IMG/VR virus record: IMGVR_UViG_3300027906_002333
Span: 1 to 56,458 of that record
Source: a virus
Reading direction: 5' to 3' (one strand)
DNA: 56,458 bases
Positions 1 through 54,061 of the stretch are shown in pieces. The translations under genes and the position numbers were made by a program. Under the pieces are notes generated by a model, which was not told the origin of the DNA, did no database searches, and saw nothing but the letters and a program-made list of their open reading frames with translations. Every line of letters begins with the position of its first letter. The stretch's first letter is position 1.

Positions 1-642
1 GCAATCAACAAAGAAGTCTCCTGTGACCATATCCCCATTATCTAAATGTACGTGAGCTATTTTGCCATCAATGATAACAGGTGCGTCTATGTGTGCTTTA
101 ATGTGTTTTAGTCTTGGATATTTTTTATTACAATATTCACTTAAGAAGTTTGCCAACTTAATTGCGTCTAAATGATATCCTACGTGAGCTTGTCCACCAT
201 TAGCACTTGTATTGCCTGCAATTTTATTATCTTTAACACTTATGTCGTACCAGGCTGTAAATTCTTCAAAACTTTCAAAAGGAACTTTACCATCAACACA
301 TAAGTCAATTACATCTGCAAAGTTACCTTGTGAAGTTTTTTGTATTGGAAAGTAGAAAGGTTGCCATATGTTTTTATCATCACCTCTCCAGTTTGGAAAA
401 TATGTTCCTAATTTAATTGTAGCATCACAACTTTTTGACCAGAGCTCTGTAGGTATACCACAGTCTGTTAAGAAATGATCGAACCCAAGTATAGTAGCTT
501 CTCCTACTCCTACTGTAGGTACGTTCGGACTTTCTATTAGTGTGATTTGTGCATTGGGTAAATTATATAAAGCATAGGCGGCCGTAAGCCAACCTGCACT
601 TCCTCCACCAACAATTACAATTTTATTTACTGATGTCAACAT
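1..642 (-). CDS. FAD-dependent tryptophan halogenase, 3'-truncated by window edge
   Basis: The reading frame starts at the ATG at 642 and stays open to base 1, so only the first 214 residues are present. The N-terminus has the dinucleotide-binding motif GGGSAGW (residues 12-18) followed by VGVGEAT in the 40s, the flavin-binding signature of flavin-dependent tryptophan halogenases. Family members chlorinate or brominate tryptophan or related substrates using FADH2. The catalytic lysine and WxWxIP motif cannot be fully judged in this fragment. The start overlaps the end of the haem oxygenase gene by 20 bases, so the two are probably cotranscribed. The physiological substrate in a phage is unknown. 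Confidence 0.85.
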   Translation of the reverse strand, partial: MLTSVNKIVIVGGGSAGWLTAAYALYNLPNAQITLIESPNVPTVGVGEATILGFDHFLTDCGIPTELWSKSCDATIKLGTYFPNWRGDDKNIWQPFYFPIQKTSQGNFADVIDLCVDGKVPFESFEEFTAWYDISVKDNKIAGNTSANGGQAHVGYHLDAIKLANFLSEYCNKKYPRLKHIKAHIDAPVIIDGKIAHVHLDNGDMVTGDFFVDC

Positions 643-1168
643 CCATAATTTCCTGAAACGTCTTTGTTGCAAATTCGAAACATACTCTTGCTTCGTCGGC
701 CATGCTATCATCTAAACGTTCTCTAATTAATTCTTTTAGTTTAGCACCGTCTTCAAAGTCATATAGTTTTCCACTTCCAGGAATTTTTCTACGGATCATT
801 TGTCCACCACTTAAATCACCCATGTGTCTTGTATACATATGAGCAAATAATCTTTCTTTGTCTTCTTTAATACTCATAATGTATTCACCGTACTCTTTAG
901 TAACAGGTAATAGTTCTGGTGTATTATCTTTATCTTCCCAAAGTTCTTCGTAGTCAGCCCATATACTTGGAGCTCGTCTAATATCCATTAGACCATTTAG
1001 CAATCCGTGGGCCATACAATTAACTTCTAGAATATCGTATTGATGATGTTGGTTAAACATAAAGGTAGCATAAAGTTTAGGGTCAATCTCTCCACTCATT
1101 AGCACCTTTACAAATGCTTGTCGTTCAGCATCTCTGTGAACGTCTTTTGTTAATTCTTTGAGGCTCAT
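623..1168 (-). CDS. ho1: Haem oxygenase (biliverdin-forming)
   Basis: A 181-residue protein with the proximal haem-ligand region TKDVHRDAE (His11) and the distal-helix motif GDLSGGQ near residues 118-124, both diagnostic of haem oxygenases. The enzyme opens haem to biliverdin, CO and iron using reduced ferredoxin. It is shorter than typical cyanobacterial HO1 (about 240 residues), as in cyanophage forms. It overlaps clpS upstream by 4 bases and the halogenase downstream. With the ALA synthase at 41165 and the HemD-like gene at 47980 it suggests phage control of tetrapyrrole flux. No bilin reductase is visible in the window, so the fate of biliverdin is unknown. Confidence 0.9.
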   Translation of the reverse strand: MSLKELTKDVHRDAERQAFVKVLMSGEIDPKLYATFMFNQHHQYDILEVNCMAHGLLNGLMDIRRAPSIWADYEELWEDKDNTPELLPVTKEYGEYIMSIKEDKERLFAHMYTRHMGDLSGGQMIRRKIPGSGKLYDFEDGAKLKELIRERLDDSMADEARVCFEFATKTFQEIMDVDISK

Positions 1169-12192: not shown

Positions 12193-12295
12193 TGGCTCTG
12201 GGGGTAGGACTCGAACCTACACGGTTAAATATATTGCAGTACATTTAGCCATACGAGAAACAATCGTACGTGTCTACCAATTCCACCACCCCAGA
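12193..12295 (-). tRNA. tRNA-Asn(GUU)-like with type II long variable arm
   Basis: A complete 103-base tRNA fold with encoded CCA. The acceptor stem TCTGGGG/CCCCAGA is perfect. The D-arm has the GTGGAATTGGTAGACAC pattern of tRNA-Leu. The anticodon stem TACGA/TCGTA encloses loop TTGTTTC, giving anticodon GUU. The T-arm GTAGG/CCTAC holds loop TTCGAGT. The variable region is 31 bases with an eight-position stem containing one mismatch. U1:A72, G73 and GUU match tRNA-Asn identity, but tRNA-Asn is normally a short-variable-arm tRNA, and U at position 37 is unusual. It follows the AsnRS-like gene by one small ORF. Confidence 0.8.
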
Positions 12296-14984: not shown

Positions 14985-15310
14985 GCTTTGTCTATGTAGA
15001 AATAGACGCAACGTTTCTGTTGCTAGGTACGTTGCCAACCCCGAGTGATTATGCCGCTAGGGCAAAATCCTCATTTACCGCAGTTACTGGCGCAGAAAAA
15101 TCTACGAAAGTAACGTTGGTTAGTGCATTATCGTTTGCATCTATAACGTTTGTTCGCGTTAACGGAGCTTACATCCCGGTAATCTCGTTCAACCTTAACA
15201 AGCCAGTCGATCCTATTTCTACCCCGTAGGGGGTGTATTGAAATGGTGGAGTAGCCGGGTATCGCACCCGGGTCCTGCTCTTGTGACATACGTTGCTGTC
15301 ATCAATTACA
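14985..15310 (-). ncRNA. ssrA: Circularly permuted two-piece tmRNA
   Basis: On the minus strand the acceptor piece comes first (T-arm CCGGG/CCCGG, then CTACTCC, A, CCA at 15244-15246), then an 18-base spacer, then the coding piece opening GGGGTAG at 15225. GGGGTAG and CTACTCC form a seven-pair acceptor stem. The tag reading frame resumes at GCA (15138), directly after a TAGAT context like the E. coli TAGTC, and runs 29 codons (ANDNALTNV ... VNEDFALAA) to TAA at 15049. The C-terminal ALAA is the classic protease signal. A hairpin at 14990-15007 probably closes the coding piece; outer ends are approximate. SmpB is not seen and must come from the host. Confidence 0.9.
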
Positions 15311-15336
15311 GTAATATTTAGCCTTAATATGCTACT

Positions 15337-15365
15337 ATTATAGGAAAAGAGATAACTAATGTCAA
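15337..15365 (-). promoter_or_regulatory. Consensus sigma70 promoter for the tmRNA
   Basis: TTGACA, 17-base spacer, TATAAT on the minus strand, placing the transcription start about 20-25 bases before the acceptor piece. Confidence 0.75.
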
Positions 15366-15375
15366 AGGAAAAACA

Positions 15376-25943: not shown

Positions 25944-26285
25944 TTAAAGATTGGCGTTGGTTGCTCGTTTCGCCATTTGGTCTACTTGGTCGGGAGCATT
26001 ACTTTGGACTGGTGCATCAGCATCAGCTTCTTTTTTAGTAGAAAGGCTAACACCTTTTTCATCAAAGTTCTTTACTAGATTTGCTAATTCTGGATTGGCA
26101 TCATATATTTGTTTGAATCCATCATAGTCAAACTGTTGCATATCCATATTTTGCATTAATTGGTTAAGTGCTTCGAATGAAAGATAGGCAGGCTGATCTT
26201 GAGAATCAGCACTACCTATAGTGTTTCTAAAAATTTGAACGAGTGCGTCTTTGGAATTTGTTGCCTCAGTTACTTTACTGAAGTC
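25944..26285 (-). CDS. Frameshift extension domain of the 26270 gene, about 113 aa
   Basis: In the -1 frame relative to the 26270 gene the sequence stays open from its slippery A9 run to the TAA at 25944, reading KDFSKVTEATNSKDALVQ through to KRATNANL. The only ATG-initiated part begins at 26156 and has no ribosome binding site. The simplest reading is that this segment is made as the C-terminus of a ~400-residue frameshift product. It could instead be a weakly translated 70-residue ORF. Confidence 0.55.
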   Translation of the reverse strand, partial: DFSKVTEATNSKDALVQIFRNTIGSADSQDQPAYLSFEALNQLMQNMDMQQFDYDGFKQIYDANPELANLVKNFDEKGVSLSTKKEADADAPVQSNAPDQVDQMAKRATNANL

Positions 26286-27145
26286 TTTTTTTTTGAAGTT
26301 TCGTTAGTCTTTTTTTTTGAGTCAGTAAGCATTTGGCCTAAGCGTCTGCTTCTTTGTACAGATTCACGTTTTTCTCTATCTGCAACTTCTTCACCGCCTG
26401 TTGCTGGTTCACTTGCTCCGAATTCATCTGCTACTGGTTCTTGTTCAGCACCTGCGTCCGCATCAACTGTTGGTTCCATATCTGCAACTGGATCCTCTGC
26501 AGGAGCCTCAGGGTCTGTTCCCATAGTTGCCGGAGCGCCTTCGCCTGTTACGATAGCTACGCCACCTGTCATTGCTTCTCTTGTAGTTTCAAAAACTGTA
26601 TATAGATTTTCTAATGCTGGTTTTACAGTATTAATGAATTCTTCGCTCTTTTCAGAACCAAGTTCGTCTCTGATCTTATCGCCTAATTCTAGCATTGATT
26701 CAGTTTGCATTTCTGCTGTGTCTTCCATCCAGCCTGTAATTCTGTCAACCATGTCTTTAGCCGCCATAACCAAAGTAGCTTCTTCTTCAGCACCTTCTTT
26801 TACTTCTTCTTTAGCTTCTTTGTCTTTGATTGCTTTTTTCATTGGTTCTTTTTTGTCGCCATCTTTGTCAGCGTCAATAAAGTCTGGTTTTGCTTTTGAT
26901 CTTTCTGCAATTTCTTGATTAATAACGTCTAGGAACATTCTGCCTTTTTGGTAAGCATCGCTAGTATGTACAGTATCAAAACTTTCATTAGTTTCAACTG
27001 CTGATAGCTGTGTACGTAATCTATTACGTGCATCTTCTAGCTGTTCATTAGTAAAATCATCTAAACGTAACTTTGTTCCGAATGTTTTTGCTAGTGACTC
27101 ATTTAAGTCTTTAGCTGATACAATTTTAAGTTCTGTTATTTTCAT
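26270..27145 (-). CDS. Structural/internal-protein-like protein with acidic middle and slippery 3' end
   Basis: A 291-residue protein. The N-terminus MKITELKIVSAKDLNESLAK resembles T4 internal head proteins. A helical region with FDTVHTSDAYQKGRMFLDV follows, then a Lys/Glu-rich stretch and a Pro/Ala/Asp/Glu-rich low-complexity part. It ends SKKKTNETSKKKTSVK: the repeat TCAAAAAAAAAGACT occurs twice, each giving the A-AAA-AAG slippery heptamer in frame. A late-type ATAAATA at 27171-27177 and AGGA precede the start. Probably a virion or scaffold protein. Confidence 0.7.
   Translation of the reverse strand: MKITELKIVSAKDLNESLAKTFGTKLRLDDFTNEQLEDARNRLRTQLSAVETNESFDTVHTSDAYQKGRMFLDVINQEIAERSKAKPDFIDADKDGDKKEPMKKAIKDKEAKEEVKEGAEEEATLVMAAKDMVDRITGWMEDTAEMQTESMLELGDKIRDELGSEKSEEFINTVKPALENLYTVFETTREAMTGGVAIVTGEGAPATMGTDPEAPAEDPVADMEPTVDADAGAEQEPVADEFGASEPATGGEEVADREKRESVQRSRRLGQMLTDSKKKTNETSKKKTSVK
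26285..26294 (-). promoter_or_regulatory. dnaX-type -1 frameshift slippery site
   Basis: TCA AAA AAA AAG contains A-AAA-AAG, the strongest known E. coli -1 heptamer. Slipping here enters the open frame running to 25944. An identical copy at 26309-26318 would instead meet a TAA two codons on. Confidence 0.6.
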
Positions 27146-27179
27146 ATCTCTTGTTCCTAACTGTTATAGTTATTTATCA

Positions 27180-27623
27180 TCAATCGTCGAATACATACTC
27201 GTCTAATTGGCAAATATAATCCCAAGTATGGTCTTTAGCTAGTTCAAACCGCATTTCCGCGGCTTCTCTACGGAATTCATCGTCTGTAGACTCTATAGTA
27301 TGCTTATGGAAAATACTGTCCATATAGTGTTTACCCAGGTTTTGATCCAATCTAAGCACCTCTACTTCTAGATTTGGGTTATTTCTAGCTCTTGCTTTAG
27401 AGTATGCTATTGCTCCACGTTTACTAAAGGTTGTAGCAATTCTTTTATGTGTCTTAACATCAAATAGTATGAATCCACCTTCTTTTTTGGATTCTCTAAA
27501 TATCGTATTCTTTATGCGTACTGACTTACCTTTACCTTTTACGTATGGCATATGAACTCTCTTGAGTCCACTTTCCATTATGTCGTCTAAGTCTGCTTTA
27601 AGTTTAGTCGGGTTCATTAGCAA
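27180..27623 (-). CDS. Hypothetical protein, 147 aa
   Basis: Not recognised. Basic N-terminal half (KGKGKSVRIKNTIFRESKKEGGFILFDVKTHKRIATTFSKRGAIAYSKARA) and acidic C-terminal end. The first strand pattern is reproducible of a small alpha/beta unit. It overlaps the upstream 68-aa gene by 20 bases, in the internal-protein cluster. Confidence 0.6.
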   Translation of the reverse strand: MLMNPTKLKADLDDIMESGLKRVHMPYVKGKGKSVRIKNTIFRESKKEGGFILFDVKTHKRIATTFSKRGAIAYSKARARNNPNLEVEVLRLDQNLGKHYMDSIFHKHTIESTDDEFRREAAEMRFELAKDHTWDYICQLDEYVFDD

Positions 27624-27810
27624 CTACCACAATCATTCCATTACGATTAACTTTAGTTATTAGAGCTTTTCTAATAAGTCCTTCGATAACGAATTGTTCT
27701 CTTTCAGGGAAACTGTTCATTGGTAACGGATTTTGTACTTTTGCTAGTACTTCTTTTTCTTCGTTACTTGTTTGAACGGTGAATTCTCCAACTAGATCAT
27801 TTATTTTCAT
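27604..27810 (-). CDS. Small protein, 68 aa, internal-protein-like N-terminus
   Basis: Starts MKINDLVGEF, like neighbouring T4-internal-protein-like N-termini. The rest reads EREQFVIEGLIRKALITKVNRNGMIVVV. The function is unknown; its end overlaps the 147-aa gene and its start abuts the 151-aa gene. Confidence 0.6.
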   Translation of the reverse strand: MKINDLVGEFTVQTSNEEKEVLAKVQNPLPMNSFPEREQFVIEGLIRKALITKVNRNGMIVVVANEPD

Positions 27811-28265
27811 TAGACTACCTTACCTGCCATTGGATTAGTTCCTACGGCTTGGTCTGCTTTCTTTTTGACTATTGAATCTAGTTCTTTTCTATTATATACA
27901 AATGCTTGAGGCTCTCCTGGTTTGGCCTCTGGATTTTTCAATGTTACTTGATCTCCTTTAACATCATCTATATCGAATTCAGTTTCTTTTCCCCCTTGAG
28001 TGGGTATTGCTATTTGTTTACCTTTTTTAAGTATAGCTTGTGAAACTTTGCTTTGTGCTTGTTTTACGGCTTTCACTGCCTTTGCGCCTATGCCTTTTGC
28101 GGCGTTGGCACCGATCTTACCTAATTGAGCTCCCATCTTAACGCCAGCTTTTGCCGCCGCTGATCCCATCTTCGCACCAACACGGCCAGCAACGGCTCCT
28201 ATTGCAGGTACTACTTCAACAATCTCTTGTTCTTTGATAGGTGATGTAAATTCTTTAGCTCTCAT
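27810..28265 (-). CDS. Ala/Gly/Lys-rich protein, 151 aa, internal-protein-like N-terminus
   Basis: Starts MRAKEFTSPIKEQE (IKE cleavage-like), followed by a long low-complexity helical part (GAVAGRVGAKMGSAAAKAG...) and a C-terminal beta piece. Composition suggests a DNA-associated or membrane-associated internal virion protein. The function is inferred only. Confidence 0.55.
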   Translation of the reverse strand: MRAKEFTSPIKEQEIVEVVPAIGAVAGRVGAKMGSAAAKAGVKMGAQLGKIGANAAKGIGAKAVKAVKQAQSKVSQAILKKGKQIAIPTQGGKETEFDIDDVKGDQVTLKNPEAKPGEPQAFVYNRKELDSIVKKKADQAVGTNPMAGKVV

Positions 28266-28627
28266 TATTTTCTTCTCGGTATTTTTCTTCCAGTTCTAAA
28301 TTTCTTTCTTCTTGTTGGAGCTCTTTTATATTTCTTCTGTGTTTGTGGCTTGTTAGCTTTTGTAAGTCGTTTAGTTAATGCTCCTGCTCTTTTAATACGT
28401 GCAGTCTTAACTTTCATTACACTAGCCTTACGTGCCTTAGCTCTCTTTATATTTATAGCACTTCCAACTCTCTTCTGTGCGTTACAGGTTGACGGTTGTG
28501 CTACAATTCTGCCCTTACGTGATCCACTTGTACATCTGTACTTACGAACCATTTTACCTTTATTTCTTCCCCAGATTTGAATAACACCTTCTTTGATAGA
28601 TTCAGTCATAATCTCGTTGATCTTCAT
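28265..28627 (-). CDS. Very basic protein, 120 aa, paralogue of 28627 gene
   Basis: Starts MKINEIMTESIKEG (IMTE). The shared core with the next gene reads QIWGRNKGKMVRKYRCTSGSRKGRIV then Lys/Arg/Ala repeats and a TRRKKFRTGRKIPRRK tail. Charge and length suggest DNA condensation in the capsid. Confidence 0.65.
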   Translation of the reverse strand: MKINEIMTESIKEGVIQIWGRNKGKMVRKYRCTSGSRKGRIVAQPSTCNAQKRVGSAINIKRAKARKASVMKVKTARIKRAGALTKRLTKANKPQTQKKYKRAPTRRKKFRTGRKIPRRK

Positions 28628-28911
28628 TATCTTCTTCCGGCTTTATTCAATGCTTGTACTCTACGTGAAGCTGGGTTAGTACGTTTTGTACGTCTAGCCT
28701 TCCTCATCATACGAGCACCTATTCTGGCTCTAGTTCTTTTTAATGTTAGTCGTGCCTTCATATTAGGAGCCGCAAAGCATTGTGACATCTGTTTAACAAT
28801 ACGTCCTTTACGTCTACCTACAGTACAACGGTACTTACGAACGACCTTTTTACCAGATCGAGCCCAGATTTGTTTTTCATCTATTGGTTCGTATATCTCA
28901 CGTACTAGCAT
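28627..28911 (-). CDS. Very basic protein, 94 aa, paralogue of 28265 gene
   Basis: Starts MLVREIYEPIDEK (IYE), then QIWARSGKKVVRKYRCTVGRRKGRIV, aligning with its neighbour over about 30 residues. A tandem duplication. The late promoter at 28916-28923 ends four bases before the ATG, so a leaderless message is likely. Confidence 0.65.
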   Translation of the reverse strand: MLVREIYEPIDEKQIWARSGKKVVRKYRCTVGRRKGRIVKQMSQCFAAPNMKARLTLKRTRARIGARMMRKARRTKRTNPASRRVQALNKAGRR

Positions 28912-28915
28912 ATAC

Positions 28916-28923
28916 GTATTTAT
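28916..28923 (-). promoter_or_regulatory. Late promoter abutting the 94-aa basic protein gene
   Basis: ATAAATAC on the minus strand, four bases before the ATG at 28911. Confidence 0.6.
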
Positions 28924-28970
28924 GTTTGTTTTGGGTGTTTGTTTTGTTTTAGGAAGGGTGGTAAATTATA

Positions 28971-29204
28971 TTACATATTCATTAGTACGACTACTAAAGT
29001 TGAAAGTAGTCCAGCTATAATAGTGCCTGTTGCACCTATTATAACTTTTACCATTGATTTATTTCCGTTTGTAATATCGGCGTGGATATGCTCTACTTTA
29101 GTCTCTATTTTAGAGAGACGAAGTTCTAAATTATTATATCTTTGTTCGCACAAATCAACGTGTGCTTCTAAGTTTTCTCGTTCTAAAGTTGTGGCTCTTG
29201 CCAT
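28971..29204 (-). CDS. Coiled-coil protein with C-terminal membrane anchor, 77 aa
   Basis: A coiled coil (RYNNLELRLSKIETKVEHIHADI) followed by one membrane helix (VKVIIGATGTIIAGLLSTLVVVL). This layout resembles XhlA-type haemolysin/holin-associated proteins, so a lysis role is possible but unproven. Confidence 0.6.
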   Translation of the reverse strand: MARATTLERENLEAHVDLCEQRYNNLELRLSKIETKVEHIHADITNGNKSMVKVIIGATGTIIAGLLSTLVVVLMNM

Positions 29205-29311
29205 CTTACACTCTCCATTCCGTTAATTATCGTGGAAGGGGCCTATATTCTAATCGCCTAAAATAGATGTAATGTTTGCCTTGTGCCTTTGTATTAATAT
29301 TTATTTAATAC

Positions 29312-29740
29312 CTACGTTTCGTTATCTACTAACTTAAAAATGATATTTCTTGTTGCATCATCTTTAGTTCTAAACGCATTATTATTTATCGTAATAGACT
29401 CTGTAAGACCAGCAATTACTGGCACTAAATCAAAGTCATCTTTAAGAGCTTCTACACTTAAAGCACCTATTTGTTCAATAGTAAATGTGAAATACCACAG
29501 TCTTTGTTTACCTGTATATTCACTGCCAAACTCGCCATTAGTAATATCAACGTCTTCAACACATTTTGGTGAAGCGTCAAAGTATGGGTTTGCTCTCAGG
29601 CCTACAACTTGTAAGAAAGTGTTCCAATTTGCTTGTTGGTTGATAGCTTTCCTATCTTCACTTCTAAATTTGGTTTGTCCTGTTTGAGTTATATCTATTA
29701 ATGTAGCAATCTCAAAGTTCATACTCATACTTATAGTCAT
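29312..29740 (-). CDS. Probable virion protein, 142 aa
   Basis: Reads MNFEIATLIDITQTGQTKFRS near the start, then WYFTFTIEQIGALSVEALKDDFDLVP. Beta-rich, no family recognised. The start is uncertain among 29740, 29728 and 29722: all lack a good ribosome site and sit right after the terminator of the 29819 gene. Confidence 0.6.
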   Translation of the reverse strand: MTISMSMNFEIATLIDITQTGQTKFRSEDRKAINQQANWNTFLQVVGLRANPYFDASPKCVEDVDITNGEFGSEYTGKQRLWYFTFTIEQIGALSVEALKDDFDLVPVIAGLTESITINNNAFRTKDDATRNIIFKLVDNET

Positions 29741-29775
29741 AAAAAAAGGGCGGAACAAATAATGAACCGCCCTTT
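29741..29775 (-). terminator. Rho-independent terminator of the 29819 gene
   Basis: AAAGGGCGG/CCGCCCTTT stem with a 13-base loop, followed by T7 on the minus strand. Confidence 0.85.
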
Positions 29776-29818
29776 AGTGTATTTGTTAACTTAATTAACG
29801 TTTCTAATTAACTATGGA

Positions 29819-30181
29819 TTACGCCGCAGTTAAAGTAGAAGCCGCAACTACGTCTGAACCAGTAACGTCGATGTTGTTTGGTCCTACAGTAGTTCCTAAG
29901 TGTCTAACAGCCGCTTGTAAAGAAGCCGCGTCCCACTGAGATGAATCAACTAACAATGTAGCCGTTCCAGCATTAGAGTCAGTTACTGACATTCCTAATG
30001 TGTTACAAGCCATTGCGATTGCTTCAACTGTTTCGTTAGCCGCGTCGTCTTCAGCTCTGATATCTTGTGCAGAGTTAGATGCGTTTTGTACTGTTAGTAA
30101 GAAAGCGCCGATGTTAGCACTTGTTCTGTATGATCCAACAACGTAGTTGCCGAATCCGTTTACTCTTGTTATTCCAGCCAT
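29819..30181 (-). CDS. Small abundant-looking virion protein, 120 aa
   Basis: An Ala/Thr/Asn-rich protein (GFGNYVVGSYRTSANIGAFLLTVQNASNSAQDI...), low in Lys, with an isolated transcription unit: a perfect late promoter (30239-30246) and its own strong terminator. That arrangement suggests high expression, as for a capsid decoration or head structural protein. The family is not recognised. Confidence 0.65.
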   Translation of the reverse strand: MAGITRVNGFGNYVVGSYRTSANIGAFLLTVQNASNSAQDIRAEDDAANETVEAIAMACNTLGMSVTDSNAGTATLLVDSSQWDAASLQAAVRHLGTTVGPNNIDVTGSDVVAASTLTAA

Positions 30182-30238
30182 TTTATTTCTCCTATTTTCT
30201 AATGACCAACATACTTTTCTCTTGTATGATGTTACTAG

Positions 30239-30246
30239 TATTTATA
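30239..30246 (-). promoter_or_regulatory. Perfect T4-type late promoter for the 29819 gene
   Basis: TATAAATA followed by C on the minus strand, 57 bases before the ATG. Confidence 0.75.
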
Positions 30247-30268
30247 AGATTTGGAAATAAAGTGTGGA

Positions 30269-31135
30269 TTAACGTCTTTTTTTAGCTCGATTTTCTAGGG
30301 ATCGTAGCATTTGAACGTATCCTGGCCCTGCTTTTACTATATTATCTATTATTAGTATTGCAGGTAGGTATTGTTTAACAAATGTACTTGGAATACTTTT
30401 GCCGTCTTTTGCAAGTTCTAAAAACTTTTTAGTACCTACTAAATTCCTTGCACCAACTAAAAATCTATACATAGATAGTTCTTGTCCTGTTACTCCTATG
30501 TCTGGACTTGATACTGTTGGCTCGTTGTCTTTAACTGTTGCTGTTTCTAAATCTCTTTCAGCAACAAGTTCTTCTAGGTAGATAATTATATCACTACTTC
30601 TAAGTTTGGCTCTAGTAGCAAGTGCTAATCTAGTTGCTACTTTTTTCTTTTCCATTGTTGATAGTCTATCAAAGTTGCCTAGGTATCTACGAGTGGCTTT
30701 ATAGTCTGCATTGGAGATATTTAATGCAGTTTCTATACTCATAAATGTTTCACTAGGTCTAGATACCATTCCACTTGATAGTGTTGTTAAGTATCTATTG
30801 ATATTCATTTTTGGTAGTGTAGTTCTACGTGCTATCATTCTAGCACTATCAGGATCTTTAAGTTTTAATAGAGCTTCATCATCTCCATTTACAAAGTAAA
30901 TGAAGTTATGTAAGTCAGTACCATGCATTTGAAAACGTGCATAATTTGTATCTTTAGTTTTCTTTGCATAAGCTCTCGCATATGGTACATACTTTGGATA
31001 TTTGCTCAGAAGCTCAAGAACTAATAAAGACAAGTATAGTCTTTCACAGCAATCGTTATAGGTTAACTTTGCTGTATCGCCCGAGTTACGGGTCATTCTA
31101 GCTTCGTATAGCTCTGATAAGAACTCTAGTTCCAC
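30269..31135 (-). CDS. Hypothetical helical protein, 288 aa, internal-protein-like N-terminus
   Basis: Starts MELEFLSELYEARM (ELYE). The rest is helical, with LTTLSSGMVSRPSETFM and a final RAKKRR. Function unknown; it follows the 152-aa gene in the cluster. Confidence 0.6.
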   Translation of the reverse strand: MELEFLSELYEARMTRNSGDTAKLTYNDCCERLYLSLLVLELLSKYPKYVPYARAYAKKTKDTNYARFQMHGTDLHNFIYFVNGDDEALLKLKDPDSARMIARRTTLPKMNINRYLTTLSSGMVSRPSETFMSIETALNISNADYKATRRYLGNFDRLSTMEKKKVATRLALATRAKLRSSDIIIYLEELVAERDLETATVKDNEPTVSSPDIGVTGQELSMYRFLVGARNLVGTKKFLELAKDGKSIPSTFVKQYLPAILIIDNIVKAGPGYVQMLRSLENRAKKRR

Positions 31136-31147
31136 TTAACTTACTCC

Positions 31148-31606
31148 TTATACAAGTTTAGCTTGATATTGTCCTTCATATGAGCTTTTTGGTTGCTCTT
31201 TAGGACTATACATATCAAAGAACTTTGCTTTCATGTCTTCAGGTGTTTTTGCACCTAATAAAGCACCTAGTACTTCTTTCTTTTTGTTTACATCATCTGT
31301 AAACTTTCTTTTCTGGTCTTGATTATAGTTCGAAGTTAACATAGCCGCGATCATTTTAGCCTGCCAACCAGTTATTGGAAACTTACCACCGTCTTCAGTT
31401 GAAACACTTTTAACTGGGTTAGGATTTCCTTGTGAGTCTATCACTTTGTGAACTTGGTTAATCATCGATACGTGCTTATCACTATATCCTTTATCTAAAT
31501 CCCCATCATCTTTATCAGCAGGATCTATTTGTTTCTTTAAAGAATCAATAGCATCTTGATCTAAGTCATCAGCTTTGATCTCTTTAATAAAATCAGTTGC
31601 TTTCAT
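31148..31606 (-). CDS. Hypothetical protein, 152 aa, internal-protein-like N-terminus
   Basis: Starts MKATDFIKEIKADDL (IKE), then a Lys/Asp-rich part and WQAKMIAAMLTSNYNQDQKRKFTDDV. Function unknown. Confidence 0.6.
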   Translation of the reverse strand: MKATDFIKEIKADDLDQDAIDSLKKQIDPADKDDGDLDKGYSDKHVSMINQVHKVIDSQGNPNPVKSVSTEDGGKFPITGWQAKMIAAMLTSNYNQDQKRKFTDDVNKKKEVLGALLGAKTPEDMKAKFFDMYSPKEQPKSSYEGQYQAKLV

Positions 31607-31615
31607 TTTTATCTC

Positions 31616-32740
31616 CTATCGTTGTACTGCTCTGTTAGCCGCACTAAAGCCAGCACGATTAACAAATTTAATATCACCATCTGGGTGAGCCAGTACATAG
31701 CCTTCCCCACCTGGTTTACTTCCTATTGATGCTTTAACATCAGCAGGTTGATTTTCTAGTTGAGCAATAATATTATTTTTAGTTTTCATTATACCTTCAA
31801 CTACTTGCCATAGAGCACCAAAGGCTCTTATGTTCGTTTTAACATACTCAGTCATCTTAGCTTTCTTCGGAGCCGAAACTGCCGAGTTCTGTAACCATTG
31901 CATAAAGTCTTTGCCTAAGTTGTCTAATCCTGTATCTGTTTTACTATTTACATATTGATATAAAACATTTGAGAAGTCTGTCATCTTCATACTTCTTAAT
32001 TGTTCTTTGTTAAGTAATGAATCTATTGCACTTGCATTCTTTGTAACGATTGCACTAATTTTGTTTATGCCACTCATATCTACTTGTGGTGGCTCTTGTA
32101 CAGTGACTGGCGGTAAAACTAATAATTGTTTACCTTGGAATATATCATAATCGGTTAAAGGTTTTTCACTACCATCTGGGTCAACTATTCTATGAATCAC
32201 AACCCCAGCTTTACTTACTTGAATACGTTTTCCTATGTCACTGTCGGCTACAACTGTATAGGAAACTATATTTGGTTTAAAGGTATATGCTCCGTTACTT
32301 AAATCAGGTGTGTTAAAAAATAATAAGTCGCCTTTGAAGTAGCCTCTAAAGTCTTCTGGTATTGCCTTTTCAAACACAGGAAACACAGATTTCATATTAC
32401 CTGCAAATGCTTTGTAATCATCTGACTTCTCAGATCCTTTTCCTCTGTTTAATAATAATGCTTCTAAGTCATCTCCATTAGTTGCACGGCCATCATAACC
32501 TTTTGCAACAAAACCTGACTTGTCTGTAAATACAAATCTTCCTTCATCGTCTCTTCCAAATATAACTGCTGGAGAGCCGTCCCATTTAACTGTAAGTGAT
32601 TGTGTGTTACCTTTTGTTAATCCAATGATTGAATCAATAACACGTTTTGCACCTGCACTACCTTCCCAAAAGATAACGTCTTCGGCGTGTTGTATACGAG
32701 CATCTTCAAATACTGCTTTTCTAAATTCGTATAATCTCAT
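31616..32740 (-). CDS. Ligase-like nucleotidyltransferase (KxDG) with internal-protein-like N-terminus
   Basis: A 374-residue protein. Residues 49-57 read LTVKWDGSP, matching ligase motif I (KxDG, Lys52). Around 130-140 FRGYFKGDLLFF resembles motif III, and GEGYVLAHPDGDIKFVNR near residue 350 resembles motifs IV and V. The gap between III and IV is long, so an insertion is present. The N-terminus MRLYEFRKAVFE resembles T4 head-targeting sequences. It could be a covalent nucleotidyltransferase sealing nicks in nucleic acid. Similar marine-phage proteins are usually called hypothetical. Confidence 0.55.
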   Translation of the reverse strand: MRLYEFRKAVFEDARIQHAEDVIFWEGSAGAKRVIDSIIGLTKGNTQSLTVKWDGSPAVIFGRDDEGRFVFTDKSGFVAKGYDGRATNGDDLEALLLNRGKGSEKSDDYKAFAGNMKSVFPVFEKAIPEDFRGYFKGDLLFFNTPDLSNGAYTFKPNIVSYTVVADSDIGKRIQVSKAGVVIHRIVDPDGSEKPLTDYDIFQGKQLLVLPPVTVQEPPQVDMSGINKISAIVTKNASAIDSLLNKEQLRSMKMTDFSNVLYQYVNSKTDTGLDNLGKDFMQWLQNSAVSAPKKAKMTEYVKTNIRAFGALWQVVEGIMKTKNNIIAQLENQPADVKASIGSKPGGEGYVLAHPDGDIKFVNRAGFSAANRAVQR

Positions 32741-33438
32741 TACGGTAACTTCAATCCATCTTTTTCAAAGTAGTCTTTAGCATCTTTAACTAGGTTTTCA
32801 TAGTTAGGATCTGTTTTAATTTTTGCATTAATAGTTTCAACACTTCTCATATCATCAGCACTTGCATTGTCACCTAATAAAATTTTAGCTACTTCGTTTG
32901 GATCTTTAGTTACAGGCTCGTTAGTAATTCTATCTACTAATCCGTTTGTTGGTGACCATTTGTAACCTTGTGCTTTTGCAACAGAGGCTATCATAATCAT
33001 TCTGTGTTGTCCTTTAAATTCACTGTCAGCCGCACCACGTAAAGCAAACTGCATAAATTTAGGATCACCAAACATTAAATCTGTTTGTACAAAGCCATTC
33101 TTAGCATCTCCGTTGATAGGTGTTTTAAAGTGTACACTAATACCTGACTTTGCTATCCAGGCTCTATCATCATCTTTAGGTGCGTTCTTATCTTTCCAGG
33201 CTTTTAACTTTCCTACAAGAGCGTCTTTGTTTACTTTCTCTTTATCTACTGCAACGTCTAAATCACCACTAGTAGGTTTAATACCAGTTGAACCTAGCAT
33301 AAAGTCTACGTGATTAATTCCTGTGATTTTTTCAAGCCATTTAAGTGTAGGCTCTACATCAGCTTGGTTTATTCGTTGAGTTGCCTCAGCACCATCTGGT
33401 CCTTTAAATACGTTACCGCCCTCATTGAGTATCTGCAT
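32740..33438 (-). CDS. Polymerase-beta-fold nucleotidyltransferase
   Basis: A 232-residue protein with LGSTGIKPTSGDLDVAVD (GS-x-DxD) and a third Asp in FVQTDLMFGDP, the catalytic set of minimal nucleotidyltransferases. The substrate could be a nucleic-acid end, tRNA or protein. The ATG at 33438 (preceded by GGACGAGGG) is chosen over an upstream TTG. The N-terminus MQILNEGGN resembles a cleavable head-targeting peptide. It is coupled to the ligase-like gene by a one-base overlap. Confidence 0.7.
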   Translation of the reverse strand: MQILNEGGNVFKGPDGAEATQRINQADVEPTLKWLEKITGINHVDFMLGSTGIKPTSGDLDVAVDKEKVNKDALVGKLKAWKDKNAPKDDDRAWIAKSGISVHFKTPINGDAKNGFVQTDLMFGDPKFMQFALRGAADSEFKGQHRMIMIASVAKAQGYKWSPTNGLVDRITNEPVTKDPNEVAKILLGDNASADDMRSVETINAKIKTDPNYENLVKDAKDYFEKDGLKLP

Positions 33439-33700
33439 CGCCCTCGTCCTTTTGTTTAGATTCAATTATTTTGTCTATACCACGTTTAAATTTACGAGGA
33501 TCGCCACTTCTAATACTATTGATAAAACGTCTTTCAATCTCTTGTGCAGTTTCTGGATCATAGCTCTCAGTGATCCTATTTAATAAGTTAATAGCACTTT
33601 CAATAATGTTATTTCCAGTAGATTGAATAAGAGCATCATTATTGGTAGTTCTATGAATGCTATTCAATTCTTCTAGTATTGATCTTGTACGTTTTCTCAT
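33422..33700 (-). CDS. Hypothetical helical protein, 92 aa
   Basis: Helical, starting MRKRTRSILEELNSI. It heads the nucleotidyltransferase-ligase-like operon, overlapping the next gene by 17 bases. Late-like ATAAATAC variant (CTAAATAC) and AAGGAA precede it. Function unknown. Confidence 0.6.
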   Translation of the reverse strand: MRKRTRSILEELNSIHRTTNNDALIQSTGNNIIESAINLLNRITESYDPETAQEIERRFINSIRSGDPRKFKRGIDKIIESKQKDEGDADTQ

Positions 33701-41021: not shown

Positions 41022-41214
41022 AGTTTTAAAAGATTTTTGGAAACAATGCGATCAAGTCAGTAAAGAATTGCACCAGAATGGCTATCAAGTCCACTATCAT
41101 CACGGAGGAGTGTTTGTTCATCATATAGAGCCTCCAAAGAAAACTACCCACATAAATACTACAGATGATAGACTTAACAAAGTTCAAAGAAAAGATACAA
41201 GAACTAAAAGATAA
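41005..41214 (+). CDS. Hypothetical protein, 69 aa, overlapping both neighbours
   Basis: Starts MLKWFKVLKDFWKQCDQVSKEL, then HHGGVFVHHIEPP. It overlaps the methyltransferase end and the ALA synthase start. No strong ribosome site. May be real given the amphipathic N-terminus. Confidence 0.4.
   Translation: MLKWFKVLKDFWKQCDQVSKELHQNGYQVHYHHGGVFVHHIEPPKKTTHINTTDDRLNKVQRKDTRTKR
41152..41159 (+). promoter_or_regulatory. Late promoter abutting the ALA synthase gene
   Basis: ATAAATAC on the plus strand, five bases before the ATG at 41165. No ribosome site lies between them, so a leaderless message is likely. Confidence 0.6.
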
Positions 41215-42343
41215 CGGTAATTACCGTGTCTTTAACGATATACTCCGCGAGAGGGGAGATTATCCCAATGCGATATGGTACGGGAAGTACGCAATTAAAA
41301 ACATTGTAAATTGGTGTTCTAATGATTATCTTGGAATGGGACAACACAAAGTGGTGCTCGATGCCATGCATACCGCCCTTGATCAAACAGGTGCCGGTTC
41401 GGGTGGAACTAGAAACATCGCTGGAACAAGTCATTATCATGTAGCACTAGAGCACGAGTTAGCCAAATTGCATAGCAAACAGTCAGCTCTACTCTTTACA
41501 TCAGCTTATGTGGCAAATGAATGGTCACTAATTGCTTTGAAACGTATCATTCCCGACATTGTGTTTTTAAGTGATAGCAAGAATCATGCTTCTTTAATAC
41601 AAGGAATAAGACACAGTGGTGCTGAAAAGAAAATTTTCAAGCACAATGATCTAGAGCAATTAGAGGAACTACTGCGAGACGTCAAAGGAACACCTTGCAT
41701 AGTCTTTGAGTCCGTGTATAGCATGGATGGATACGTCAGTAAATTACCAGAAATTGTTGCATTGGCTAAGAAGTACAATGCCATCACGTACCTCGACGAG
41801 GTTCACGCCGTTGGCCTGTATGGTGAAACAGGTGCTGGATATTCAGCAAAGCTAAGATCACAGGATCAAATCGACATACTGAATGGCACATTAGGTAAAG
41901 CCTTTGGAGTTCAGGGCGGATACATAGCAGGGAAGTCTGACGTTATAGACGCAATTCGTTCTGTCTCCTCTGGCTTTATTTTTACAACATCAATGAGTCC
42001 AGTTATTTGTGCAGGAGCATTGGCAAGTGTCAAGTACTTAAAAGATCACAACGACCTAAGAGAAAAACATCAAGAACGTGCTAAAAGATTAAAGAATTTA
42101 TTTAGAAACAGAGGAATTCCAATAATGGAGAACGAAACACACATTGTTCCGGTTACTGTGGGCGATGCCAAAAAGTGTAAACAGATTAGTGATGAATTAA
42201 TAAATGAATATGGAATATATGTTCAGGCAATAAATTATCCAACTGTTGATGTAGGCACAGAACGTCTACGTTTTGCTCCGACTCCATTCCACACGAATGC
42301 AATGATGCATTCACTATGCGATGCTCTAGAAAAAGTATTGTAG
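41165..42343 (+). CDS. hemA: 5-aminolevulinate synthase (ALAS, Shemin pathway)
   Basis: A 392-residue PLP enzyme of the alpha-oxoamine synthase group. WCSNDYLGMGQHKVVL, GAGSGGTRNIAGTSHYHVALEHELA, the SDSKNHASLIQGIRHS stretch, FESVYSMDGYVSKLPEI, TYLDEVHAVGLYG and GTLGKAFGVQGGYI (PLP lysine) match ALAS closely. It condenses glycine and succinyl-CoA to 5-aminolevulinate, the committed step of alphaproteobacterial haem synthesis. Shemin-pathway genes have been reported in aquatic phage sequences. Confidence 0.9.
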   Translation: MIDLTKFKEKIQELKDNGNYRVFNDILRERGDYPNAIWYGKYAIKNIVNWCSNDYLGMGQHKVVLDAMHTALDQTGAGSGGTRNIAGTSHYHVALEHELAKLHSKQSALLFTSAYVANEWSLIALKRIIPDIVFLSDSKNHASLIQGIRHSGAEKKIFKHNDLEQLEELLRDVKGTPCIVFESVYSMDGYVSKLPEIVALAKKYNAITYLDEVHAVGLYGETGAGYSAKLRSQDQIDILNGTLGKAFGVQGGYIAGKSDVIDAIRSVSSGFIFTTSMSPVICAGALASVKYLKDHNDLREKHQERAKRLKNLFRNRGIPIMENETHIVPVTVGDAKKCKQISDELINEYGIYVQAINYPTVDVGTERLRFAPTPFHTNAMMHSLCDALEKVL

Positions 42344-53626: not shown

Positions 53627-54061
53627 ATGGATATAATATTCGACATCGATGGGACTTTGATGAATATCGAACATCGTAAGAAGTTCGTAGAGCAGAGACC
53701 AAAAGACTGGAAGAGCTTTCGTGAGCTTACGAAAGACGATACTCCAAACGAAGATGTCTTTGCGATAGCCATTGCCTTGCAGAAACAGGGTCATAATATC
53801 TTAATCGCTAGTGGGAGGAACAAGAGTCAACGAGCAATCACTTTGATGCAATTGATGGGCCAGAAGTTGGTCTTCAGAGATATTAAATTAAGAAGTGATA
53901 AAGACTTTCGTCCAGATCATTTTGTGAAGAAAGATATGTTAGATCAGTTTCGAGCAGAAGGATGGAAACCTGAGTTGGTCTTTGATGACAGAACTTCTGT
54001 CGTTGAGATGTGGAGAGAAAACGGTCTTCGTGCAGTTCAAGTCGCACCAGGAGACTTTTAA
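53627..54061 (+). CDS. Stand-alone Pnkp-type polynucleotide 3'-phosphatase (HAD)
   Basis: A 144-residue HAD protein: IIFDIDGTLMNI (catalytic Asp pair), ILIASGR, and LVFDDRTSVVEMWRENGLRAVQVAPGDF, which matches the C-terminal phosphatase domain of T4 polynucleotide kinase (DDRTQVVEMW...QVASGDF). The kinase domain is absent. It likely removes 3' phosphates from broken RNA or DNA ends. Confidence 0.9.
   Translation: MDIIFDIDGTLMNIEHRKKFVEQRPKDWKSFRELTKDDTPNEDVFAIAIALQKQGHNILIASGRNKSQRAITLMQLMGQKLVFRDIKLRSDKDFRPDHFVKKDMLDQFRAEGWKPELVFDDRTSVVEMWRENGLRAVQVAPGDF

Follow-up and report, generated by a model that had tools for sequence, protein, structure and literature searches.

The proteins that phages are known to inject along with their DNA are mainly restriction inhibitors, ADP-ribosyltransferases, and RNA polymerases. 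In T4, the prohead protease gp21 cuts after L/I-x-E and thereby removes propeptides of 7-65 residues from virion proteins (Alt loses 7 and gp23 loses 65) (PMC9026906). The first 10 residues of IPIII are enough for targeting, and replacement of the cleavage Glu by Asp stops processing, not targeting (PMC9026906). Elsewhere, a Pol-beta-fold nucleotidyltransferase, RlaP, is genetically coupled to a covalent nucleotidyltransferase of the RNA ligase type, and tRNA repair by this couple has been proposed as a phage strategy (PMC7824862). The African swine fever virus (ASFV) nucleoid contains DNA polymerase X (O174L) and a DNA ligase (NP419L), for which a role in pre-replication repair has been proposed (PMC12172490). 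Gap-filling polymerases are also paired with ligases in NHEJ and BER (Pol lambda/mu with LigIV, bacterial LigD). Finally, cyanophages encode fusions of a DUF6267 domain with a cytidylyltransferase (S-PM2 gp138), and cytidylyltransferases have been reported in cyanophage virions (PMC3037559, PMC10665884).

The locus described here lies in a 56-kb fragment from a marine virus of bacteria, and the whole 56,458-nucleotide stretch is referred to as the window; it carries neither head genes nor a prohead protease gene. On the minus strand, the open reading frames of a ligase-like protein (32740 to 31616) and of a nucleotidyltransferase (NTase; 33438 to 32740) have base 32740 in common, within a TAATG, and the coordinates and one-base overlap given in the original prediction are therefore correct. 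The NTase start (ATG at 33438, giving MQILNEGGNVFKG) agrees with the starts of its relatives. In our reading, which we consider probable, the two proteins form a gap-filling polymerase and ligase pair that is tagged, trimmed by a gp21-type protease, and injected, and that fills and seals breaks before new protein synthesis (Table 1).

Table 1. Features of the window bearing on the ligase-NTase pair (arrows mark predicted cleavage sites)
Feature	Positions	Strand	Properties and evidence
291-aa homologue of PA5oct virion protein EST35_0237	26270-27145	-	MKITELKIVSAKDLNE↓S; HMM E 2e-17
151-aa basic protein	27810-28265	-	MRAKEFTSPIKE↓Q; sequence, block statistics
Two Lys/Arg-rich paralogues (28265-28627 and 28627-28911)	28265-28911	-	CTS-like MKINEIMTESIKE↓G and MLVREIYEPIDE↓K
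Homologue of PA5oct virion protein EST35_0234	29312-29728	-	no CTS seen; HMM E 3.8e-7
288-aa protein	30269-31135	-	MELEFLSELYE↓A; syntenic homologues in Atu_ph07 and Phosso
152-aa protein	31148-31606	-	CTS-like MKATDFIKE↓I; sequence, block statistics
DUF6267/phrog_455 ligase-like covalent nucleotidyltransferase	31616-32740	-	374 aa; Pfam, AF2, fold search, invariant motifs
Predicted ligase propeptide, MRLYEFRKAVFE	32740-32705	-	site [LIVM]xE in 37/38 relatives
PolX-like NTase	32740-33438	-	232 aa, MQILNEGGNVFKG...; AF2, Foldseek/VIA, invariant Asp
Predicted NTase propeptide, MQILNE	33438-33421	-	mature protein from GGNVFKG; site ILNE↓GGN conserved
Upstream operon gene, 92 aa	33422-33700	-	MRKRTRSILEELNSI...; phrog_11854 'virion structural protein' (head and packaging), 2.3e-15
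PNKP-type HAD 3'-phosphatase	53627-54061	+	144 aa; Pfam HAD_PNKP PF25109 2.9e-30; no kinase domain, no CTS

Each of the described systems resembles this locus in part. As with IPI, IPII, IPIII, and Alt of T4, several different proteins share a short propeptide at the N-terminus that closes with [LI]xE before a small residue, and one relative has T4-type head genes; whereas T4 cargo consists of a restriction inhibitor, an ADP-ribosyltransferase, or small basic proteins, the predicted cargo here is a polymerase-ligase pair, sometimes made as one polyprotein. The coupling of a Pol-beta-fold NTase to a ligase of the covalent nucleotidyltransferase type is shared with RlaP and RNA ligase, but the window proteins match neither the RlaP nor the RNA_ligase Pfam family, the NTase has a PolX-like fold that includes a thumb, and no head packaging has been proposed for RlaP in the literature searched. 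Unlike the NHEJ and BER pairs, the window pair has neither a visible Ku partner nor an 8-kDa lyase domain, and its ligase has no OB fold. S-PM2 gp138-type proteins have a homologous DUF6267 domain but no PolX-like partner and no visible N-terminal tag. The delivery system and the enzyme superfamilies are known, and the cargo is, as far as the literature searched shows, unreported.

The ligase gene matches Pfam DUF6267 (E 3.5e-31) and, in PHROGs, phrog_455, which is annotated as of unknown function. DUF6267 occurs in 135 sequenced phage records according to one query alone, the S-PM2 fusion of DUF6267 with a cytidylyltransferase has matches in 521 records, and the domain is unmentioned in the literature searched. 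The KxDG protein with ligase-like motifs that had been predicted was recovered in the family alignment: across 38 relatives K52, D54, G55, D138, E346, G347, and K358 are invariant and map to superfamily motifs I (K52-x-D-G), III (D138, where Glu is usual), IV (E346-G), and V (K358). K52, the Lys of KWDG in the window protein, is the predicted adenylylated residue. The AF2 model (pLDDT 89; residues 1-14 below 50) lacks a C-terminal OB domain and motif VI, a single helix ending the chain 16 residues past the motif V Lys, and contains a helical insert (222-330) between motifs III and IV. A comparison with ligase and GTase folds, which the original prediction had suggested, gave modest evidence: the model is confident and the best 50 VIA rows listed are all RNA or DNA ligases, but their Z-scores are only 5.0-7.0, in the chance-match range, and Foldseek matches to the PDB are weak (best E 0.19, a tRNA ligase on top), at a level where chance matches are possible. 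The closest folds are RNA ligases (Naegleria Rnl, TbREL1, T4 Rnl1). In the viral structure library, the first named row outside DUF6267-like matches is an RNA ligase of Agrobacterium phage Atu_ph07 (E 1.3e-3), whose 324 residues equal the length of the gene adjoining the Atu_ph07 NTase homologue. Sequence searches returned less. In Pfam, DUF6267 alone was above the cut-off for the window ligase, with no match to RNA_ligase (PF09414), a family to which the Atu_ph07 ligase shows weak similarity (E 0.002, under the cut-off); a sequence-profile search of the PDB with the family alignment gave no ligase or polymerase match, a phmmer search of the PDB with the Atu_ph07 and Phosso KxDG proteins gave no match, and an NCBIfam scan gave nothing useful.

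The predicted Pol-beta fold of the second protein was confirmed by its AF2 model (pLDDT 92.3; residues 1-7 below 50), which matches DNA Pol lambda, beta, mu, and TdT (Foldseek E 1.5e-4; VIA Z about 11). Beyond what had been predicted, the fold is specifically that of a family-X palm plus thumb, since residues 12-201 align to Pol beta 139-335, without the lyase domain. S57-G58-D59-x-D61 and D120 are invariant across 37 relatives. By its fold, the NTase would be a family-X DNA polymerase palm plus thumb, and templated gap filling is predicted. In sequence searches, Pfam DNA_pol_B_palm was reached by 1 of the 37 members (E 0.07), and the family alignment gave no polymerase or ligase match in a profile search of the PDB. 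The assignment of the two proteins as a ligase and a family-X-like polymerase is likely to be correct.

Scans of IMG/VR yielded 77 ligase loci and 301 NTase loci, 80 of the latter being listed. Among the loci listed, 78 distinct ones show both genes, and in every one of them the two share a strand and are either fused or neighbours no more than about 700 bp apart; five other loci with the ligase only are broken off at a contig edge. Ten loci are single-ORF NTase-ligase fusions, one of which has the reversed order and still has both cleavage sites. At L147:5801-8678, the swapped fusion consists of the ligase, a second Pol-beta-like domain (GSAAYYIKDLEDKKETQYGDIDMML), and the PolX-like NTase. 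A different KxDG protein directly adjoins the NTase homologue of Atu_ph07 and that of Sinorhizobium phage Phosso; PA5oct encodes a KxDG protein, EST35_0228, close to its NTase homologue EST35_0231. The partnership therefore persists even where the ligase has been replaced or has diverged extremely.

The substrate of such a pair can be argued in two ways. Incoming phage DNA is favored because the NTase has a PolX fold and because other phages carry DUF6267 within replication clusters. The best-surviving alternative keeps the same packaged pair and gives it an RNA substrate, with an RNA ligase and an NTase restoring nucleotides at cleaved tRNAs and thereby countering anticodon-nuclease defence. 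We regard this as the less likely second choice, kept alive by the RNA-ligase-like fold of the ligase, without an OB fold, and by the RlaP precedent (PMC7824862). It is also in keeping with the viral structure search, in which, DUF6267-like rows aside, the Atu_ph07 protein named RNA ligase came nearest, and with the seven or eight tRNAs and one tmRNA of the phage (Rfam, ARAGORN). Against it, the palm and thumb of the NTase are fold-matched to templated DNA polymerases, and the DUF6267 genes of other phages lie in replication clusters. Furthermore, RlaP (PF10127) is matched neither by the window NTase at E<=1 nor by any of the 37 relatives at E<=0.1, and a separate true RlaP is present on the contig of one relative (G005).

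Regarding the RNA genes themselves, the tRNA at 12196-12295 (minus strand) was called by Rfam (47 bits), not by ARAGORN. The tmRNA at 15004-15369 (minus strand) is permuted (Rfam alpha_tmRNA 7.4e-34, tmRNA_permuted 1.6e-18), and because it is alphaproteobacterial in type, it hints at an alphaproteobacterial host. By eye, the ORFs at 623-1168 (minus strand) and 41165-42343 (plus strand) are like heme oxygenase and 5-aminolevulinate synthase, respectively.

Both proteins had been predicted to begin with peptides containing (I/L)-x-E or similar T4 prohead protease sites. The tag columns were read just before the first conserved domain residue in 38 ligases and 37 NTases, which are related and hence not independent sequences. 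Among the ligases, P3 is Leu, Ile, Val, or Met in 38/38, P1 is Glu in 37/38, and P1' is mostly Ala, Gly, or Ser, so that [LIVM]xE↓ is found in 37/38; the NTases have Leu or Ile at P3 in 35/37, Glu at P1 in 35/37, and Gly or Ser at P1' in all 37, with the full [LI]xE↓G/S in 35/37. T4 controls show like sites (IPIII, MKTYQEFIAE↓A; gp24, MAKINELLRE↓S). Conservation in both families and an excess over chance uphold the predicted sites, but the window ligase has V-F-E↓D (residues 10-12), which departs from strict L/I-x-E, its relatives having mostly LxE, IxE, or VxE. In both models the low-confidence tail (pLDDT <50) stops at about the cleavage site. Upstream of it, the tails vary in length and sequence (MKFNEFNNILRE↓G, MRFSEIKRPLTE↓A, MKFEEFKIVNE↓G, MRYAEFKILKE↓A; the ligase of another relative starts MKFNEFNNILREGARI...), and because they vary so freely, the fold cannot explain the fixed Leu/Ile and Glu. 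The linkers of the fusions keep the site as well (MQIIVE↓AARIEH in L144, SVIVE↓AARIEH in L140, FLQE↓SAEARIQH in L135); cleavage there would turn one polyprotein into two enzymes. The ligase of relative L066 has LVD↓A at this position and may be packaged uncut, because Asp blocks processing, not targeting, in T4 (PMC9026906).

Tags were seen in the Methylophilales phage Melnitz on its DUF6267 protein (MINFSKYITE↓D), a cytidylyltransferase-like protein (MKKFSEIIE↓ARGDTAVFTFGRF), and a nuclease-like protein (MQGFKTFLSE↓A), and none was seen at the N-termini of cyanophage DUF6267 proteins. Nuclease-like proteins with a D...SxK pattern are encoded near DUF6267 or NTase genes at L137:13535-14647, L154:5929-7014, L149:4641-5660, and L155:3997-4896; some bear a CTS-like tag, and they have no Pfam match. 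In Atu_ph07 (L150:7579-12351), tandem proteins starting M[RK]W(H/D)QLxE or MRLFQLLE lie within the virion-protein cluster; by eye they resemble tagged ADP-ribosyltransferases, and the two that were tested had no Pfam match.

Most neighbours of the pair carry the same kind of tag, which the original prediction had not covered. In the block at 26270-33700, 11 of 13 genes have [LI]xE within residues 3-24, compared with 11 of 54 elsewhere in the window (Fisher p 3e-5, a value that is only a guide, as the block limits and some start codons were picked by the analyst and related sequences are non-independent). When the residues of the tails were shuffled, the mean was 3.4 tagged genes, and none of 5000 trials reached 11. 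From both results it follows that (I/L)-x-E sites in the block exceed chance. Homologues of the upstream operon gene lie near the NTase loci of PA5oct, Atu_ph07, and Phosso, and those of the 288-aa protein adjoin the NTase and ligase in Atu_ph07 and Phosso (HMM E 1.8e-36 and 6.4e-37). Profiles of the two Lys/Arg-rich paralogues each recover 171 members; being very basic, these proteins are candidate DNA-binding or DNA-condensing internal proteins.

Virion data are available for relatives. The PA5oct NTase homologue EST35_0231 (HMM E 2e-19) is a virion protein according to an ESI-MS/MS note in its record, as are EST35_0234 and EST35_0237; the KxDG protein EST35_0228 is without this mark. The idea that packaging in PA5oct requires the same tag was dropped, as EST35_0231 has no site and yet was found in virions. 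The NTase and ligase of Atu_ph07 are gp65 and gp66 (CDS counted from the record start) and fall inside the cluster of CDS 31-76, for which, as a whole, 29 virion proteins were reported. One relative's contig (G048) encodes a T4-type gp20 portal, gp21 protease (PF03420, 1e-23), and gp23, and neighbouring proteins there begin MIKLIDLLKE↓G and MIKLIDILYE↓A. A gp23 search of 50 relative records matched one contig; a gp21 search (PF03420) of 13 other relative fragments gave no match, but as the control was likewise silent, this negative is uninformative. The conserved tags, the fusion-linker sites, the block enrichment, and the NTase in PA5oct virions make it very probable that both enzymes are packaged into the head, and probable that they are matured by the protease and injected; packaging and injection had been suggested for some parts of the kit. 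That they are instead unpackaged cytosolic enzymes of DNA metabolism, with [LIV]xE tails arising by chance or serving another role, for example as a protein-docking peptide, appears improbable. Glu-rich N-termini are common in phage proteins, the control genes also score in 11 of 54 cases, and the tail is missing from cyanophage DUF6267, but two unrelated folds share the P3/P1 pattern where the disordered tail ends, the fusion linkers keep it, and a homologue of the NTase is present in PA5oct virions.

A further observation beyond the original prediction is that an adenylyltransferase of the NadM/NMNAT type is a recurrent third partner in relatives. A cytidylyltransferase/NadM-like domain is fused to or adjoins DUF6267 in cyanophages, Melnitz, and several marine relatives, a similar NadM/NMNAT-type domain is fused after the ligase at L065 and L067, and contig G048 encodes an 829-aa NMNAT-NTase-ligase fusion (L137:5579-8068) with [LI]xE sites at both linkers. 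A motif scan of the window found no NadM-like enzyme. That the tagged module mainly counters NAD+-depleting defence, the NadM-like enzyme making NAD+ and the ligase using or coupling to NAD+/AMP chemistry, would agree with these fusions and with the cytidylyltransferases of cyanophage virions (PMC3037559, PMC10665884), but it is an unlikely reading, as the motif scan found no such adenylyltransferase in the window and the PolX-like partner is left unexplained.

For the injected gap-filling polymerase and ligase, the following course of events can be proposed. T4-type capsid-targeting propeptides would bring both enzymes into the prohead core, where a gp21-type prohead protease would trim them at the [LIVM]xE↓ sites and free them, and both would exit the head with the DNA into the host. 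The PolX-like enzyme would then extend a gap or end by a few nucleotides, and adenylylated K52 would allow the ligase to seal it, so that breaks or gaps would be repaired ahead of any new protein synthesis. Computation shows the catalytic residues, the folds, the strict pairing, the fusions, and the tail-edge sites, and experiments by others show the PA5oct NTase homologue in virions, whereas processing, injection, activity, and substrate in this phage are inferred. As the tag is on both neighbouring genes, the virus probably injects a ready-made repair kit. The end-repair kit that had been predicted included a Pnkp-type 3'-phosphatase at 53627. This enzyme is real and the ligase and Pol-beta-fold protein hold together as a functional pair, but the phosphatase, encoded 20 kb away on the opposite strand and untagged, is no more than a possible partner; it could supply 3'-OH ends after infection starts.

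A broader proposal, which we put forward tentatively and at somewhat less than even chances, is that the PolX-ligase injected by tailed phages, which some relatives join with a NadM-like adenylyltransferase into a single polyprotein, mends the incoming genome and is an independently evolved counterpart of the packaged PolX-ligase of large eukaryotic DNA viruses. The likeness to ASFV, a family-X polymerase and a ligase carried in the virion, is an analogy only; ASFV is a eukaryotic virus, its ligase is of an unrelated type, and it has no gp21-type propeptides. If the reading given here is true, some phages arrive able to mend nucleic acid before any gene expression, which would bear on how marine phages survive sunlight damage and on how DNA- or tRNA-cutting defences are evaded early on. 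It also provides a working hypothesis for the function of DUF6267, and the tag may be used to spot other injected proteins by sequence.
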